Below are positions 10,298 through 60,866 of a stretch of DNA of 61,955 nt, in pieces (position 1 is the first letter of the stretch; every line of letters begins with the position of its first letter). A program made the position numbers and the translations under genes. Origin of the DNA: Acidimicrobiia bacterium (lineage in GTDB: Bacteria > Actinomycetota > Acidimicrobiia > Acidimicrobiales > Acidimicrobilacustridaceae); NCBI GenBank assembly GCA_020832495.1, contig JAFIEP010000010.1, positions 1 through 61,955 on the forward strand, in the 5' to 3' direction. Below the pieces are notes generated by a model, which made no database searches, was not told the origin of the DNA, and saw nothing but the letters and a program-made list of their open reading frames with translations.

Positions 10298-10372
10298 ATG
10301 CGCATCCCATGCGCATCCCACGTGCTTCACCACGTGCTTCACCACATGCTTCACCACATGCTTCACCACATG
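10298..10372 (+). repeat. Tandem repeats carrying serial in-frame start codons
   Basis: Two 11-bp copies (CATGCGCATCC) are followed by four 12-bp copies of CACRTGCTTCAC at 10319-10366 and a partial fifth at the ATG of the sulfotransferase fold. As 12 is a multiple of three, each of these units places GTG or ATG in the reading frame. Confidence 0.85.
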
Positions 10373-11347
10373 GACATCTTCTTCCCCCACATCATGAAGA
10401 CGGCGGGATCGTCGTTCCTGTCGCACGCCCGCGACAACCTGCCCGACGGCGTCTACCAGCGGTCGCCGTGGTGCCTCCACGAGCCCGTCGAACCCTTCCG
10501 CGACAACATCACCAAGCTCCTGCTCAAGTTGGACCCGACCACGGTCCTGCTCCTCACGCCCGACGAGCGCGACCGCTTCCGACTCTTCCAAGGTCACGTC
10601 CCCGCAGCGAGTGCCGCACTGCTCGACGGGCCGGTTCGCACCGTGGTGCTCCTGCGCGAGCCGGTGGCCCGAGCGATGTCGCACCTCGTCCAGGAAACGT
10701 ATCGACCGGGAGTGGACCCCGACACCGTCCCCCCACCCCCGGAGCGCTACGAGCTCCCGTTCCCCTTCATCGGCGACCCGACGAACCACCAGGTGAAGAT
10801 GCTCGGCACCTCCGAGGCGAGCGTTCGATCCAGCACACCGCGCTCGGAGGTGGGCGACCGGCTGCGCGCCGCCACGGTACGGCTGGCGGTGGCGCTCGGT
10901 GAGGAGGACCAAGCGGCCGCCCTGGCCGACCTCGAGGCCATCGCCGCCACCCCCGAGGCACGCCGCGAACAGGCGGCGATCGCCGAGGCAGCGACGGTGG
11001 ACGGTGTGGTCGACGTGGACCGCTTGGTCGAGTCCATGGTGGACCCGGCGCTGCTCCGCGCCGACCCGGCCGACGACACGAGCCTCGCTGCTGCCTGCGA
11101 ATGCCTGCGGGAAGCCGAGATCGTGGGGACGACCGAGGACTATCCCGCCTTCCTCACCGAGGTGAGGGACCGCTTCCAATGGCGGATTCCCCGACCCCGG
11201 AAAGTGAACGTCGGTCTGCGTGTGGAGCTCGACGCCGCACTCCAGCGACGGATCCGAGCCGACAACGAATTCGACATCGAGCTGTACCAGCGCGCCCTCG
11301 AGGAGATCGATCGTCGACGCCGGCGGACCGTCCTCGGCGGCGACTGA
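10298..11347 (+). CDS. Sulfotransferase-family protein with repeat-derived N-terminus
   Basis: The core starts at MDIFFPHIMKTAGSS, a 5'-phosphosulfate-binding-loop pattern (HxxKTAGSS) typical of sulfotransferases that use PAPS. A likely 3'-phosphate loop follows (VVLLREPVARAMSHL). The rest is divergent and helical. AGGAG lies 6 bases before ATG 10298, which would give 349 residues; the first 24 come from short tandem repeats (HVLH, HMLH units). Each repeat carries its own in-frame ATG or GTG, and ATG 10370 would give a 325-residue protein starting at the fold. The substrate is unknown. The stop codon belongs to an 8-bp tandem repeat. Confidence 0.75.
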   Translation: MRIPCASHVLHHVLHHMLHHMLHHMDIFFPHIMKTAGSSFLSHARDNLPDGVYQRSPWCLHEPVEPFRDNITKLLLKLDPTTVLLLTPDERDRFRLFQGHVPAASAALLDGPVRTVVLLREPVARAMSHLVQETYRPGVDPDTVPPPPERYELPFPFIGDPTNHQVKMLGTSEASVRSSTPRSEVGDRLRAATVRLAVALGEEDQAAALADLEAIAATPEARREQAAIAEAATVDGVVDVDRLVESMVDPALLRADPADDTSLAAACECLREAEIVGTTEDYPAFLTEVRDRFQWRIPRPRKVNVGLRVELDAALQRRIRADNEFDIELYQRALEEIDRRRRRTVLGGD

Positions 11348-11391
11348 CCCGCTGACCCGCTGACCTGCTGACCTGCTGACCTGCTGATCCG
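11344..11391. repeat. 8-bp tandem repeat with TGA in every unit, 6 copies
   Basis: CTGACCCG twice, CTGACCTG three times, CTGATCCG once. The first unit contains the stop codon of the sulfotransferase-like gene (11345-11347). Because 8 is not divisible by three, the six TGA triplets cover all three frames twice. Confidence 0.9.
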
Positions 11392-11413
11392 CCGGCCAGT
11401 TGCACGCGTCCGC

Positions 11414-27092: not shown

Positions 27093-28076
27093 ATGACCAG
27101 CGAGGACGCCGCCCCCACCTACGACGACGTCGTGGTCGCCGCCGGGCGACTCGAGGGCATCGTCCACCGGACGCCCCTGACGACCTGCTCGACCATCGAC
27201 CAGTGGGTCGGTTGCCGACTGCTGCTCAAGTGCGAACATCTCCAGCGCGTCGGTGCCTTCAAGTTCCGCGGCGCCACCAACGCCGTGCTGGCACTCAGCG
27301 ACGACGACGCGACCAACGGCGTGGCGGCCCACTCCTCGGGGAACCACGCCGCTGCGCTGGCCCTGGCGGCACGTACACGCGGCGTCCCGGCGCACGTGGT
27401 CATGCCCACCAGCGCGCCGGTCGCCAAACGCGCCGCCACCGCCGGCTACGGGGCCGAGATCATCGACTGCGCCCCGACGCTCGAGGCCCGCGAAGCCACG
27501 CTGGCCGAGGTCCTCGAACGCACCGGCGCCGTCGAGATCCACCCCTACGACCATCCCCACGTGATCGCCGGGGCGGGAACGGCCTCGCTCGAACTGCTCG
27601 AACAGGCAGCCGAGTGCGGCATCGACCCTCTCGACGCCGTCGTGGTCCCCGTCGGTGGCGGTGGGTTGGCCAGCGGCACCGTCCTCGGTGTGCGAGGTCG
27701 CCACGGCACCGACGTGGCGGTGTTCGCCGCCGAGCCGACCGGGGCCGACGACGCCGCCCGCTCGCTGGCCGAGGGACACCTCATTCCCTCCCTGGCGCCC
27801 GACACCGTCTGTGACGGGCTGCTGACCTCGCTCTCGCCCCGGACGTTCAGCATCCTGTCGAGCGGGCTCGAGCGAGTGGTCACCGTCACCGACGACGAGG
27901 TGCTCGAAGCCATGCGACTCCTGTGGGAGCGGGCCAAGATGGTGGTGGAACCCTCCGGTGCCATCGCGGTGGCGGCCACCCGGCGGTTGGTCGCCGGTGG
28001 CGAGGTGTCACCCGATGCCACCGTCGGCGTCATACTCAGCGGGGGCAACGTCGATCTCGACGCGTTGCCCTTCTGA
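27093..28076 (+). CDS. PLP-dependent threonine/serine dehydratase
   Basis: A 327-residue fold-type II PLP enzyme of the threonine ammonia-lyase / serine racemase group. The PLP lysine is in FKFRGATNAV, the substrate loop is SSGNHAAALALAA, the phosphate-binding loop is VGGGGLASG, and the C-terminus has VEPSGAIAVAA and LSGGNVD. It lacks a C-terminal ACT regulatory domain, so it is a catabolic-type enzyme or racemase. Product would be 2-oxobutyrate or pyruvate plus ammonia. TAGGGT 16 bases before the ATG is a possible -10. Its last codons and stop are copied in a tandem repeat. Confidence 0.9.
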   Translation: MTSEDAAPTYDDVVVAAGRLEGIVHRTPLTTCSTIDQWVGCRLLLKCEHLQRVGAFKFRGATNAVLALSDDDATNGVAAHSSGNHAAALALAARTRGVPAHVVMPTSAPVAKRAATAGYGAEIIDCAPTLEAREATLAEVLERTGAVEIHPYDHPHVIAGAGTASLELLEQAAECGIDPLDAVVVPVGGGGLASGTVLGVRGRHGTDVAVFAAEPTGADDAARSLAEGHLIPSLAPDTVCDGLLTSLSPRTFSILSSGLERVVTVTDDEVLEAMRLLWERAKMVVEPSGAIAVAATRRLVAGGEVSPDATVGVILSGGNVDLDALPF

Positions 28077-28169
28077 CGCGCTGCCCTTCTGACACGCTGC
28101 CCGTCTGACGCGCTGCCCTTCTGACCCGCTGCCTTCTGACCCGCTGCCTTCTGACCCGCTGCCTTCTGA
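28061..28169. repeat. 15/16-bp tandem repeat built from a gene's 3' end, 7 units
   Basis: The last bases of the dehydratase gene, CGCGTTGCCCTTCTGA, form the first unit. Three 16-bp and three 15-bp variants follow, each ending in TGA. The unit-length changes place TGA in all three frames. Confidence 0.92.
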
Positions 28170-28207
28170 CAGGATGTCCGTCCGACGATCGCTCCTGGTG
28201 ATGTCGC

Positions 28208-29599
28208 TCAGCCCGAGAAGCGAGCGATGACGTCTGACGCCTCGGGCTGTTGCAACTCCAACACGGCCGCACCTCCACTGGTGGTGCGGGGGAACACAGG
28301 GAGATCGACCGAGTCGGGGCTCAGCCCACGGGCGGCCCATCCGAAGCGCAGGGCGTCGAGGAAGGTGAACGAGTCGTCGAGGCGCATTCCCGGACCCAGT
28401 GCACCCGCAGCGTTGGCCGCTCGCCACGGGTTGCGGGTACCCCCCAACTTCCCCAACAGCGAGGTGAGGAAGAGTCGTTGACGTTCGGTACGGCCGATGT
28501 CGCCCGTTGGGTCGGTTCGCCACTCCCCGTCGATGAGCTGGGTGAACTGGCGGGAGCGGACGTAGGCCAGCGCCTGCGTCCCGTCGAGCACGACCTCCCC
28601 CGCTTCCTCCACGAACAGGCCCGACATCTCGTCACGGGCCGGGTGCTCGAAGGGGATGGTGACCCCACCGAGGGCGTCGACCAGCCCCCCGAAGCTGACG
28701 AAGTCGACCTCCATGTAGTGGTGCACCGGGAGGCCGAGGCTCTGCACGGCGCCGATGAGGGCCACGGGACCGTTGACGTAGGTGCTGTTGATCCGGCCCG
28801 GCTCACCGGTGACCGGGTCGACCACCCACAGGTCACGGGGGATCGACAACATGGCCGACCCCGCGGGACCACCGGTGCGCAGCAAGATGATGGTGTCCGC
28901 CCGGGCGCCGCCGAACTCGCCGTCGAGGAACGCCCCGGCGTCGGGCGCGTCGGGGTCGATGTTGTCACGGCTGTCGGTGCCGACGATCAGGTAGTTGGTG
29001 CCCTCGCCGCCGGTCGACAGCACGTCGCCCACCGGTACCCGTTCGATGCGGCTGAACTGCCACCACCCGAATCCAACCGAGAGCACCAGCAGCACCGCAA
29101 CGGTGATGAGCCCCCCGCGCACGAGGCGACGGAGCGACGGTGGGCGGCGACGCGACCGGGCACGCGCCGGGCGGGACGCCTTCTTGTCGCCCCTTGACGA
29201 CGGCGATGCGTCGCGCGTCGGCCGCTCCGGAGCCTCCGGTCGGCGTGGCGTCGGTTGCGGCCGAGCCGCGCTGGGAGACCCACCGCCCGCCGGATCCCGC
29301 GATCCAGCCGACGTCGGCCGCCGCAGAGGTCTGGCCTCGCTGGCGTCGATGCGCCGCCCGCCGCTCGTCCCGGCGGCCGGTCGACCCACGCCGGCGGAGC
29401 GATCCGCCGGTGGAGCCGGCGGCAGCACCTGGGTTCGGTCGGCACCGGGGTCATCGGCCGGTGACTCCCCGACCGTGCCCCGGTCGGCGGTCCCCGGTGG
29501 CGGGTCGTTCAGGTCGATCTTCGGCACCAGCATGGTCGGGTCCGGGTCGACGAACGGGGCCTCGTCCCTCGCCCCGTCGTCATCTCCGTTCCGAGCCAT
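28208..29599 (-). CDS. LytR-CpsA-Psr (LCP) family cell-wall transferase
   Basis: A 463-residue LCP protein. The N-terminal 155 residues are a long polar, Pro/Arg/Asp-rich cytoplasmic tail; then one membrane helix (GLITVAVLLVLSVGFGWWQF) and an extracellular LCP domain. The domain shows YLIVGTDSRDN, ADTIILLRTGG, LSIPRDLWV and the INSTYVNG and YVRSR motifs that bind polyprenyl-pyrophosphate and magnesium. These enzymes transfer teichoic-acid-like polymers or arabinogalactan to peptidoglycan. TAGCAT is 6 bases before the ATG. It belongs to the same envelope theme as the glycan gene cluster. Confidence 0.92.
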   Translation of the reverse strand: MARNGDDDGARDEAPFVDPDPTMLVPKIDLNDPPPGTADRGTVGESPADDPGADRTQVLPPAPPADRSAGVGRPAAGTSGGRRIDASEARPLRRPTSAGSRDPAGGGSPSAARPQPTPRRPEAPERPTRDASPSSRGDKKASRPARARSRRRPPSLRRLVRGGLITVAVLLVLSVGFGWWQFSRIERVPVGDVLSTGGEGTNYLIVGTDSRDNIDPDAPDAGAFLDGEFGGARADTIILLRTGGPAGSAMLSIPRDLWVVDPVTGEPGRINSTYVNGPVALIGAVQSLGLPVHHYMEVDFVSFGGLVDALGGVTIPFEHPARDEMSGLFVEEAGEVVLDGTQALAYVRSRQFTQLIDGEWRTDPTGDIGRTERQRLFLTSLLGKLGGTRNPWRAANAAGALGPGMRLDDSFTFLDALRFGWAARGLSPDSVDLPVFPRTTSGGAAVLELQQPEASDVIARFSG

Positions 29600-43230: not shown

Positions 43231-43235
43231 CGGCC

Positions 43236-43314
43236 CGTCACCGCCCGCCCGTCACCGCCCGCGCACCACCGCCCGCCCATCACCGCCGCTCGTCACCGCC
43301 GCTCGTCACCGACC
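43236..43314. repeat. 13/14-bp tandem repeats between convergent genes
   Basis: Five to six variants of CGTCACCGCCCGCC stand between the ppgK stop and the end of the convergent Gfo/Idh gene. On the minus strand each unit reads GGTGACG or GGTGATG. Confidence 0.8.
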
Positions 43315-43328
43315 GGGCTGGCGACTAC

Positions 43329-44573: not shown

Positions 44574-45503
44574 ATGACGCCCACGAGCCCACCGCCGTCG
44601 CTGGTCGACCCCGCTCCACGCTCGCTCGGGCCGCTGGGCGAGATCGGCCCGCTGGGTTTCGGCTGTTGGCGCTTCACCCACGACGACATCGGCCGGGCCG
44701 GGGCCCTCCTCGACGCGGCACTCGATGCCGGCATGACGCTGGTCGACACCGCCGACGTCTACGGCCTCGACTGGGGTGGCACCGGCTTCGGCAGCGTCGA
44801 GTCGCTCCTCGGGGCTGTCCTGGCCGACGACCCCACGCGCCGCGACCGGATGGTCCTGGCCACCAAGGGCGGGATTCGCCCGCCGGTCCCCTACGACTCG
44901 AGCGCCGCCTGGCTCCGCACGGCGTGCGAGGACTCGCTCCGACGACTGCAGGTGGACCACGTCGAGCTGTACCAGATCCACCGCGCGGATCTCTTCACCC
45001 ACCCCGCCGAGGTGGCCGACACGCTCGCCGACCTCATCGAGCGAGAACTGATCGAGGCCGTCGGGGTCAGCAACCACACGCCGGCACAGCACCGCGCCCT
45101 GGCGGCACACCTCGAGGTTCGCGGGGTCCCCCTCGTCAGCACCCAGCCCGAGTACTCCGCAGCGGTGCTCGACCCCCTGCGCGACGGCACCTTCGACCTG
45201 GCCGCCGAAGCCGACCTCGTGCCCCTGGTGTGGAGCCCCCTGGCCGGCGGCCGGCTGGCCACGGGTGATGGCATCTCGCCCAACCTGGTGGAGGTGCTCG
45301 ACGACCTGGCCGCACGCGAAGATGTCGACCGGGCCACGGTGGCACTGGCCTTCGCCCTGGCCCATCCGGCGCGCCCGGTGGCGCTGGTGGGCAGCCAACG
45401 GCCCGAACGACTCACCGCTGCGGTCGAGGCCCTCTCGGTTCACCTCGACCGCAGCGACGTCTACCGCATCGTCGTCGCCAGCGAAGGAGTACCCCTTCCA
45501 TGA
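44574..45503 (+). CDS. Aldo/keto reductase
   Basis: A 309-residue AKR. The catalytic tetrad can be placed: Asp in LVDTADVYG, the Tyr in the same motif, Lys in VLATKGG and His in YQIHRAD. The C-terminal half (GVSNHTPAQHRAL and WSPLAGGRLA) fits the L-fucose-dehydrogenase-like group of AKRs. It reduces or oxidises a carbonyl of a sugar with NAD(P)H. Its ATGA junction overlaps the next gene by four bases, forming an operon. Confidence 0.9.
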   Translation: MTPTSPPPSLVDPAPRSLGPLGEIGPLGFGCWRFTHDDIGRAGALLDAALDAGMTLVDTADVYGLDWGGTGFGSVESLLGAVLADDPTRRDRMVLATKGGIRPPVPYDSSAAWLRTACEDSLRRLQVDHVELYQIHRADLFTHPAEVADTLADLIERELIEAVGVSNHTPAQHRALAAHLEVRGVPLVSTQPEYSAAVLDPLRDGTFDLAAEADLVPLVWSPLAGGRLATGDGISPNLVEVLDDLAAREDVDRATVALAFALAHPARPVALVGSQRPERLTAAVEALSVHLDRSDVYRIVVASEGVPLP

Positions 45504-46564
45504 CCGTCGAAGTCTCGTGGTTCTCCGCACTGTGTGACGACGACTACCGCTGGCTGGGGGTGGCCGATCCGGCGCTGCGCTCGAGTTGGCCGCACTGTCG
45601 TGACATCGTGACCGCCGCCGAGCGCAACGGCTTCGACAACATCCTGCTGCCCTCCGGCTACGCCCTCGGTATCGACTCGGTGGCCTTCGCCGGGGGCATG
45701 GCCGCTCTCCTCGAGCGGTTGCACCTGCTGGTGGCCGTGCGATGTGGCGAGCTGGTCGTGCCACAGCTCGCACGACAGTTGGCCACGCTCGACCAGATGC
45801 TCGGCGGCCGCCTCACGGTCAACATCATCTCGAGCGACCTTCCCGGTGAGTCCCTACCGTCGGAACCCCGCTACCGACGCACGATCGAGGTGATGGGTGC
45901 CCTGCGCGCCCTCCTCGACGGCCAGCCCGTCGAGATCGACGGTGAGTTCCTCGAGCTCTCCGTCGAGCCGCCCCGAGTGCGGACGGTGAGCGGCACCTGT
46001 CCGCCTCTCTACTTCGGCGGCATGTCGGAACCCGCCCGGGACACCGCCGCGGCGGGCGCCGACGTCTACCTGATGTGGCCCGACGTGCTGCCGGCCGTGC
46101 GGGACCTCATGGACGACCTCCGCACCCGCGCCGAGCGGGTGGGGCGGACGCTGCGCTTCGGCTACCGCGCCCACGTCATCGTGCGGGAGACCGAATCGGA
46201 GGCCCGCGCTGCGGCAGCCGAGTTGGTGAGCCGGCTCGATGACGCCGAGGGGCGTCGCATCCGCGAGCGGTCGCTCGACTCGGGCTCTGCCGGCGTCGCC
46301 CGCCAGGCGGAACTGCGCGACGATGCCGACGACGATGGCTTCGTGGAGGACCACCTGTGGACCGGGGTGGGCCGAGCCCGCTCCGGCTGTGGCGCGGCAA
46401 TCGTGGGCGATCCCGACCAGGTGCTGGCCAAACTGCGTGCCTACGAGCAGGCCGGCATCGAGGCCTTCATCCTCTCGGGCTACCCCCATCGGGAGGAGTG
46501 CGACCTGTTCGGCCGCTACGTCCTCCCCCGCCTCGACCACGCCCCGTTGAAGCCCCGGATCTGA
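45500..46564 (+). CDS. LLM-class flavin-dependent oxidoreductase
   Basis: A 354-residue luciferase-like monooxygenase of the alkanesulfonate monooxygenase (SsuD-like) group: TIM-barrel with DNILLPSGYALGIDS, LVAVRCGELVVPQLARQLAT, GGRLTVNIISSDLPGE and the YFGGMSE region. FMNH2 is the cosubstrate, usually supplied by a partner reductase; none is in the operon. The substrate is unknown, perhaps a sulfonate or sugar-derived compound. It overlaps the AKR gene by ATGA. Tandem CTGACC repeats start at its stop codon. Confidence 0.9.
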   Translation: MTVEVSWFSALCDDDYRWLGVADPALRSSWPHCRDIVTAAERNGFDNILLPSGYALGIDSVAFAGGMAALLERLHLLVAVRCGELVVPQLARQLATLDQMLGGRLTVNIISSDLPGESLPSEPRYRRTIEVMGALRALLDGQPVEIDGEFLELSVEPPRVRTVSGTCPPLYFGGMSEPARDTAAAGADVYLMWPDVLPAVRDLMDDLRTRAERVGRTLRFGYRAHVIVRETESEARAAAAELVSRLDDAEGRRIRERSLDSGSAGVARQAELRDDADDDGFVEDHLWTGVGRARSGCGAAIVGDPDQVLAKLRAYEQAGIEAFILSGYPHREECDLFGRYVLPRLDHAPLKPRI

Positions 46565-46757
46565 CCCCGAACCGGGTGACCGCCGACCGACTGACCGCCG
46601 ACCGGCTGACCGCCGACCTGCTGACCGCCGACCTGCTGACCGGCAACCGGCTGACCGACACATCGACTGACCGGCACATCGGCTGACCGGTACATCGGCT
46701 GACCGGCGAGCCGGCTGACCGGCAACCGGCAACCGGCAACCGGCAACCGGCGGCGAT
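46565..46757. repeat. 15/16-bp tandem repeats beginning CTGACC, about ten units
   Basis: Units such as CTGACCGCCGACCTG and CTGACCGGCACATCGG run from the stop of the flavin enzyme gene to that of the convergent PhoD gene, ending in four 7-bp GGCAACC/CGGCAAC copies. Nearly every unit contains a TGA triplet. Confidence 0.88.
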
Positions 46758-56078: not shown

Positions 56079-56125
56079 CCCGCCCACGTCGACCAGCAGG
56101 TGGTCACGAGGCAGTCACCAGGCAG

Positions 56126-56776
56126 TCACCAGCTGTCGACGTGCACGATGTCGTCGAGATCCACCCTCGGCGCCGGCTTGAACTCGGTGCCGACGGTGTA
56201 GGCCACGGGGATCAACAGCCCCTGGGACACCCGGTCGAAGGGAATCCCCAACAGCTCCGCCACCTCCTGCTCGTGCTGGAGGTGCAGCGTCGTCCAGCAG
56301 GTGCCGAGCGCCCGTTCCCGGGCAGCGAGCATGAAGCTCCACGCAGCGGGGAACAGCGAACCCCACAAGCTGGCCGTGGCGAACGACGGCAGACCGTCGA
56401 GACGCATCGACAGGCACGGGATGACCATGGCCGGTACCTCACCCATGTGTTCTGCCAGGTACTCCGCAGAGGAAAGCACCCGATCCTGGGTGCGGGCTCG
56501 CTCACCGCTCACCTCGCCGACCACGGCCTCGGCCATCCCCGAGTCCCGGTAGGCGGCGAAGGCCGTCCGGTAGAGGTCGCCAATGGCGGCCTTCTTGGCT
56601 GCATCGGTGACCACCACCCAGTGCCAGCCCTGGGCGTTCGAGCCGGTGGGGGCCTGGACGGCCAGCTCGATGCACTCGCGTAGCAGCTCGATGGGCACCG
56701 GTCGCTCGAGGTCGAGTCGCTTGCGGACGCTGCGGGTGGTGCTCAACAGTTCGTCGGCGGAGAGTTCGAGGCGCAT
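56126..56776 (-). CDS. Nitroreductase-family protein
   Basis: A 216-residue FMN-dependent nitroreductase. RSVRKRLDLERPVP is the FMN loop, QAPTGSNAQGWHWVVV the characteristic substrate loop and GTCWTTLHLQ the interface segment. It differs clearly from the nitroreductase at 17.1 kb. TAGCGT is 6 bases before the ATG (leaderless pattern). Convergent with the secernin-like gene; a short GGCAGTCACC duplicate lies between. Confidence 0.88.
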   Translation of the reverse strand: MRLELSADELLSTTRSVRKRLDLERPVPIELLRECIELAVQAPTGSNAQGWHWVVVTDAAKKAAIGDLYRTAFAAYRDSGMAEAVVGEVSGERARTQDRVLSSAEYLAEHMGEVPAMVIPCLSMRLDGLPSFATASLWGSLFPAAWSFMLAARERALGTCWTTLHLQHEQEVAELLGIPFDRVSQGLLIPVAYTVGTEFKPAPRVDLDDIVHVDSW

Positions 56777-58317: not shown

Positions 58318-58363
58318 CCGAGCGCGCAAACCCGCCTGCGGAGCAGCGGGCGACCCGACCCGG

Positions 58364-58445
58364 CCGGCTGGCCACCCGACTCACCACTCGACCCGACCGG
58401 CTGGCCACCCGACTCGCCACTCGACCCAACCGGCTGACCACTCGA
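58364..58445. repeat. 33-bp tandem repeat, 2.5 copies
   Basis: Units starting CCGGCTGGCCACCCGACT at 58364, 58397 and 58430 are spaced exactly 33 bases apart, with few mismatches. They occupy the gap between the glcD-like and TPP-enzyme genes. Confidence 0.88.
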
Positions 58446-60712: not shown

Positions 60713-60762
60713 ACCGGAAGCTTTCCATCCTCCGCCACCCGTCACCCGCCAGCCACTGCCGG

Positions 60763-60866
60763 GATCCGCTGCCGCAATCCGCTGCCCCAATCCGCTGCCC
60801 CAATCCGCTGCCGCAATCCGCTGCCGCGATCCGCTGCCCCAATCCGCTGCCGCAATCCGCTGCCGC
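60763..60866. repeat. 13-bp tandem repeat, 8 copies, between divergent genes
   Basis: Eight exact-length copies of RATCCGCTGCCSC cover 104 bases directly upstream of both the GNAT gene (minus) and the DUF2127-like gene (plus). Confidence 0.92.

Follow-up and report, generated by a model that had tools for sequence, protein, structure and literature searches.

A stop-bearing tandem array at a gene end in an Acidimicrobiia genome, probably a minisatellite placed as neutral duplication predicts

Known repeats and additional stop codons

VNTR loci are tandem repeats generated by slippage, and dispersed intergenic repeats, such as MIRU and REP, occur in some bacteria. The MIRU of mycobacteria form a dispersed family of related 46–100 bp units, some of which are reported to overlap stop or start codons. 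Here we describe a tandem array at positions 28061–28169 of a 61,955-nucleotide stretch of DNA from an Acidimicrobiia bacterium (contig JAFIEP010000010.1 of assembly GCA_020832495.1); the whole stretch is called the window. The array shares with bacterial minisatellites and VNTR loci, as these are commonly described, a row of head-to-tail, locus-specific and imperfect units between genes, as well as units that differ by point changes and a single-base indel. It departs from a typical minisatellite or VNTR locus in that a gene's end forms its first unit. Like MIRU, it places short repeats near gene ends, but MIRU are dispersed whereas the unit at 28061–28169 occupies one place in its genome. 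Additional stop codons form a further point of comparison: Ho and Hurst 2019 (PMC6764699) report no compelling evidence of selection for additional stops in eubacteria. The array has in common with those cases the extra stops past the natural one, and differs in that its stops are by-products of tandem duplication and show no sign of being selected. Among the matches listed for tandem repeats straddling bacterial stop codons (titles and starts of abstracts, with most subscription journals uncovered), no paper on such repeats appeared.

The array and its probable seed at the gene end

The array takes up most of a 131-base gap between two convergent genes, the first of which ends with its natural stop, TGA, at 28074–28076. 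The features of the locus are as follows.

27093–28076, + strand: PLP-dependent dehydratase-like gene, threonine/serine dehydratase type (Pfam PALP, E 6.1e-77)
28061–28076, + strand: unit 1 of the array, the final 16 bases of the dehydratase-like coding sequence including the stop; probable seed, given the conserved C-terminus
28061–28169, + strand: tandem array made up of four 16-bp and three 15-bp units, all seven TGA-ended, established by exact concatenation
28125–28169, + strand: three 15-bp units, identical in their letters; their place in the order of events is a reconstruction
28170–28185, + strand: possible decayed eighth unit, ending in CGA, 10/16 identical to unit 2 by eye
28208–29599, − strand: LytR-CpsA-Psr family gene, convergent, stop at 28208–28210, start uncertain (29122 according to the gene caller)

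The dehydratase name for 27093–28076, which we presume to hold, draws on general knowledge of the family and on the naming in the original prediction.

From 28061 to 28169 the window matches, letter for letter, a head-to-tail concatenation of units of 16, 16, 16, 16, 15, 15 and 15 bp, just as had been predicted: the last 16 bases of the dehydratase gene are the first of seven 15/16-bp units, each ending in TGA. TRF calls the array at 28066–28170 with 6.8 copies, 93% match and a score of 161; in 50 third-order Markov simulations of the window, array scores reached 79 at most, and the array is therefore not a product of chance. Its units have the properties expected of a minisatellite, being longer than about 6 bp, arranged head to tail and alike beyond chance, and they are also specific to the locus. 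At up to one mismatch across the whole genome of the same organism, the 16-bp form (15 bases of it) occurs in four copies and the 15-bp form in three, all within this array, and no second match to the array region was found in that genome (40 of 47 candidates scored). The three 15-bp units are probably the latest expansion, following the loss of one C, if the order of events is read from the unit letters. The resemblance of 28170–28185 to unit 2 may be chance.

Unit 1 encodes the last residues of the protein, L-P-F. The motif L-P-[F/W] stands at the same place in five of the six closest homologues (L002, L003, L004, L006 and L008; approximately 50–60% identity) and is not kept in the sixth, L005. 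None of these six loci (L002–L006 and L008) has a TRF array across its stop; L006 carries a short 12-bp row of 2.4 copies around 40 bases beyond the stop. Because the C-terminal motif is kept in array-free homologues, the coding end is probably older than the array, and unit 1 is probably its ancestral seed, as far as conserved C-termini can tell. This agrees with the earlier suggestion that coding sequence together with its stop was the seed of the repeat.

We read the stop at 30 homologous loci (L002–L006 and L008–L032, with L033–L036 excluded), a set whose more distant members, 31–46% identical, may include paralogues. A TRF row with a score of at least 40 crosses the stop at two of the 30: at L009 (2450–2494) a 14-bp unit in 3.2 copies (score 67) lies over the stop codon of the dehydratase homologue, and at L021 there is a weak row with a 9-bp unit (score 43). 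As L009 comes from a different family of the same order, its stop-covering repeat is of independent origin. The closest homologue within the family (genome G005, 58%) lies in a different gene neighbourhood, and tblastn of four window neighbour genes against the homologue loci, most of which reach about 1.5–4 kb past the match, found none of them.

Lability was assessed by proxy in the family f1, represented in the counts below by the window genome (G000) and the relatives G006 and G003. For five of the eight stop-straddling arrays of G006 and G003 we looked for a counterpart in the congeners of these two genomes, G014 and G013, which belong to other f1 genera than the window genome. One of the five had no match in the congener; at the four matched genes, with alignments that cover the gene on one side only in three of the four comparisons, no array stood at the corresponding place (TRF score at least 40). 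In the comparison of L087 with L129, in which both sides are matched and identity across the gap is 79%, the array is missing from L129. The L087 array has the stop on one side and, on the other, an inverted repeat that both species carry and that looks like a terminator stem by eye.

Placement and distribution of arrays

The window holds 30 arrays at a score of at least 50, whereas simulated windows averaged 1.7. Those comparable to the array under study, together with two further intergenic arrays, are listed below.

11344–11392, + strand: 8-bp unit CTGACCCG, across the stop of 10370–11347, convergent gap
43233–43315, + strand: begins 3 bases past a stop, units without TGA on the + strand, convergent gap
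46561–46730, + strand: about 11 units of 15–16 bp, across the stop of 45500–46564, TGA in each unit, convergent gap
56103–56132, − strand: 11-bp unit, across the stop of 56126–56776, convergent gap
58356–58445: 33-bp unit in 2.7 copies, no stop codon per unit, co-directional gap
60756–60866: 13-bp unit in 8.5 copies, no stop codon per unit, divergent gap

Among the stop-bearing arrays of the window, the one at 46561–46730 is the most extreme, with TGACC in every unit while the remainder varies, and it continues into a 7-bp ACCGGCA array. A spurious gene called inside it (46576–46686) was excluded from the placement, density and 3′-end counts and is still included in the C/G skew table and the next-stop background given below.

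For wider counts we sampled 770,623 bases of G000, made up of the window and 40 stretches picked non-randomly by contig number and length, and 200 kb from each of four relatives: G006 and G003 in f1, and G042 and G038 at the level of the order. Genes were called by a codon-usage caller, unchecked against annotation, which gives stops more reliably than starts. The G000 sample contains 152 arrays, of which 53 are noncoding and 12 lie across a stop; four lie across a start, and two of these four are also among the 12 stop-straddlers, one by way of the spurious gene's start. Stop-straddling arrays number 5 in G006, 3 in G003, 1 in G042 and 2 in G038.

Arrays favour the 3′ ends of genes in f1. When an array was required to cover at least half of the 20 bases past a stop or before a start, in gaps of at least 20 bases, arrays were found at 32 of 634 3′ ends and at 4 of 708 5′ ends (Fisher P = 1.8e-7). 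A duplication at a gene start disturbs the promoter, the ribosome-binding site or the spacing. Within genes, duplication is tolerated mainly at multiples of three, which matches the arrays inside coding sequences of the G000 sample, where the period is divisible by 3 in 90 of 99. Noncoding arrays of G000 show a slight excess of such periods as well (27/53, P = 0.008), which the simple model does not predict and which missed genes could cause.

The three f1 genomes hold 1.98, 1.96 and 2.70 arrays per kb of convergent gap and 0.18–0.65 in other gaps, with densities 3.6–4.2 times higher in convergent than in co-directional gaps. The difference persists when only the 20 bases past f1 stops are considered (22 of 254 convergent against 10 of 380 co-directional ends, P = 0.0013); it is not clearly present in G042 and G038. 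Arrays are best tolerated in convergent gaps because these contain neither a promoter nor a ribosome-binding site that a repeat could damage, and such lack of constraint accounts for the f1 excess only loosely, leaving the excess mildly unusual.

We modelled neutral placement by cutting each convergent-gap array to one unit, which yields the ancestral gap, and placing that unit at random with both proteins left intact; the model then gives the probability of overlap with a stop. In f1, at a score of at least 50, 14 of 27 convergent-gap arrays straddle a stop and 14.02 (sd 2.00) are expected; with the window excluded the figures are 10 of 20 and 11.04. Other cut-offs in f1 gave 17 of 32 (16.93 expected) at 40, 11 of 19 (10.67) at 60, 8 of 15 (8.48) at 80 and 4 of 10 (5.46) at 100, and all five genomes together, for arrays of two or more copies, gave 16 of 29 (14.64). 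G000 alone at a cut-off of 80 has a deficit of straddling arrays, 3 of 8 against 5.00 expected (sd 1.22). Straddling is certain for any unit longer than its ancestral gap, as in 4 of 15 G000 arrays, for which the expectation is 1 and uninformative; the power of the placement test is therefore modest. A test not conditioned on each array's own gap gave 9 of 15 straddling arrays in G000 against 4.9 expected (sd 1.7), which made the stop itself a candidate for a preferred seed. That test misleads because arrays sit in short gaps, and the candidate was discarded when the excess disappeared with the ancestral gap length in use.

The view that the array is more than a random minisatellite is thus not supported, as straddling occurs as often as neutral placement predicts (14/27 against 14.0, sd 2.0). 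We favour instead, with a probability of about 0.88, a minisatellite that arose by tandem duplication of the slippage type and was filtered by selection on the neighbouring proteins. A 16-base segment, comprising the last codons of the dehydratase-like gene and its stop, would have been duplicated once, and the array would then have been extended by further slippage, the presumed mutational step. One C would later have been lost and the resulting 15-bp unit copied twice. The first copy would keep the native end and stop while the others land in non-coding DNA, their repeated TGAs being passengers. The arrangement persists because the protein stays as it was whenever the duplicated segment ends at or past the stop codon. 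Tandem duplication is free to act on segments with a stop in them, which makes repeats that carry stops an expected feature of gene ends. The second option of the original prediction, a slippage product tolerated past stops, is supported as well. The array at 28061–28169 is an ordinary minisatellite, located as neutral duplication and selection on neighbouring proteins predict, and it exemplifies how a striking pattern at one locus, here a stop codon at the end of every unit, vanishes as a signal once placement is modelled.

Unlikely readings: termination, stop guarding and dispersed elements

The array might instead aid transcription termination between the convergent genes: C-rich and G-poor on the dehydratase strand, it would offer Rho a rut-like site for loading. 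We consider this very unlikely. Positions 28077–28170 contain 43 C against 21 G, a Rho RNA-binding domain is encoded in the genome (Pfam PF07497, E 6.6e-27), the stretch 27900–28400 yielded no intrinsic terminator-like site (shuffles yielded none either), and convergent gaps are the ones that arrays favour. The excess of C over G past stops was also larger with an array than with none in all three f1 genomes, at 0.080 against 0.018 (n = 35), 0.111 against 0.052 (n = 11) and 0.550 against 0.057 (n = 5), but in the two larger sets this difference is slight and the spread wide (sd 0.16–0.18). Against a role in termination, all four checkable arrays are not conserved between congeners, unit sequence varies from gap to gap, and the RNA of the array folds no better than shuffles on either strand. 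We also considered arrays as substitutes for hairpin terminators and set the idea aside: convergent gaps have hairpins as often with an array as with none (21 and 106 gaps respectively, P = 0.86), so that arrays do not seem to replace terminators.

The same reasoning can be extended to f1 as a whole, where arrays that arise repeatedly in convergent gaps could serve as expendable sequence for transcription termination or as a collision buffer, C-rich on the strand of the seeding gene. We hold this to be improbable to a similar degree. If it were true, gene ends would be raw material for new terminators, and the denser arrays of convergent gaps, if functional, would offer a quick route to terminator sequence.

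That the array was selected to provide backup stops in all frames, against readthrough or frameshifting at a leaky TGA, is less likely still. TGA is kept in all seven units and each of the three frames meets a stop within 15 codons, compared with a median distance to the next in-frame stop of 42 codons in the sample of the same genome (535 genes, a background that omits genes with no stop in 600 bases and counts downstream genes). TGA is likewise present in every unit, or almost every one, of some other arrays, a striking case being 46561–46730. The TGAs of units 1–4 fall in frames 0, +1, +2 and 0 and those of the three 15-bp units in frame 0, which bears out the predicted presence of TGA in all three frames and corrects its cause: the shift comes not from the one-base difference between 15- and 16-bp units but from 16 being 1 mod 3, the 15-bp units holding frame 0. 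Past the natural stop, the next one comes after 15 codons in frame 0, after 4 in frame +1 and after 9 in frame +2, which puts the in-frame backup farthest.

Unit length carries no mark of such selection. A period divisible by 3 does not spread TGA over the frames, yet 9 of 23 stop-straddling arrays have one, where one third is expected (binomial P = 0.66); the proportion differs by genome, from 2 of 12 in G000 to 4 of 5 in G006. With the array consensus as reference and only bases past the native stop counted, conservation in TGA columns does not significantly exceed that of other triplets (P = 0.30; 14 arrays, of which 3 are invariant). By eye, TGA is very well kept at 46561–46730 and 11344–11392, and it is lost in copies at L039:14830–14946 and L084:417–475. 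A first count, with the native unit as reference, had suggested better conservation of TGA (32 of 43 kept, against 0.67 for other triplets). Two things biased it: selection acts on the native stop, and arrays whose unit holds less than the whole stop were included. Nothing significant was left after correction.

Array-free gene ends tell the same story: across 277 of them, extra stops within 15 codons number 54, 55 and 53 in the three frames in order, compared with 57.8, 58.0 and 58.7 after shuffling of single bases. TGA is the stop of 609 of 673 genes and C comes next in 262 of 673, which makes TGAC ordinary in this genome. The finding of Ho and Hurst 2019 (PMC6764699) for eubacteria in general is negative too. 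The proposal that the repeat guards against readthrough in any frame therefore gains no support from the periods, the TGA conservation test or the counts of extra stops, nor from the four arrays comparable in a sister species, which that species lacks; nothing found suggests that the array guards against translation errors. The observations that the original prediction had set against stop guarding, namely close relatives without the repeat, free variation of other stop-adjacent repeats and no frame bias for TGA, were obtained by proxy only.

Insertion of a dispersed repeat element at the stop, whether mobile or structural, has next to no probability and is largely refuted by these results: a 14-base core of a 27-bp unit does recur at two places in G006, but the units at 28061–28169 are confined to their array at up to one mismatch in their own genome, RNA folding is close to that of shuffles (z 0.44 and 0.77 for the two strands) and unit 1 corresponds to a conserved protein end. 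The two G006 places, L077:5216–5294 and L080:18640–18693, have 27-bp units with the shared core in opposite orientation, and both touch a stop codon; this 27-bp repeat is possibly a dispersed element.

Two further observations concern contig ends and long units. Tandem arrays lie at both ends of the window's contig (26–63 and 61771–61881 of the window), as one would expect of a short-read assembly that breaks at repeats. About eight diverged copies of a 146-bp unit lie at L048:295–1500, near the start of contig C13.
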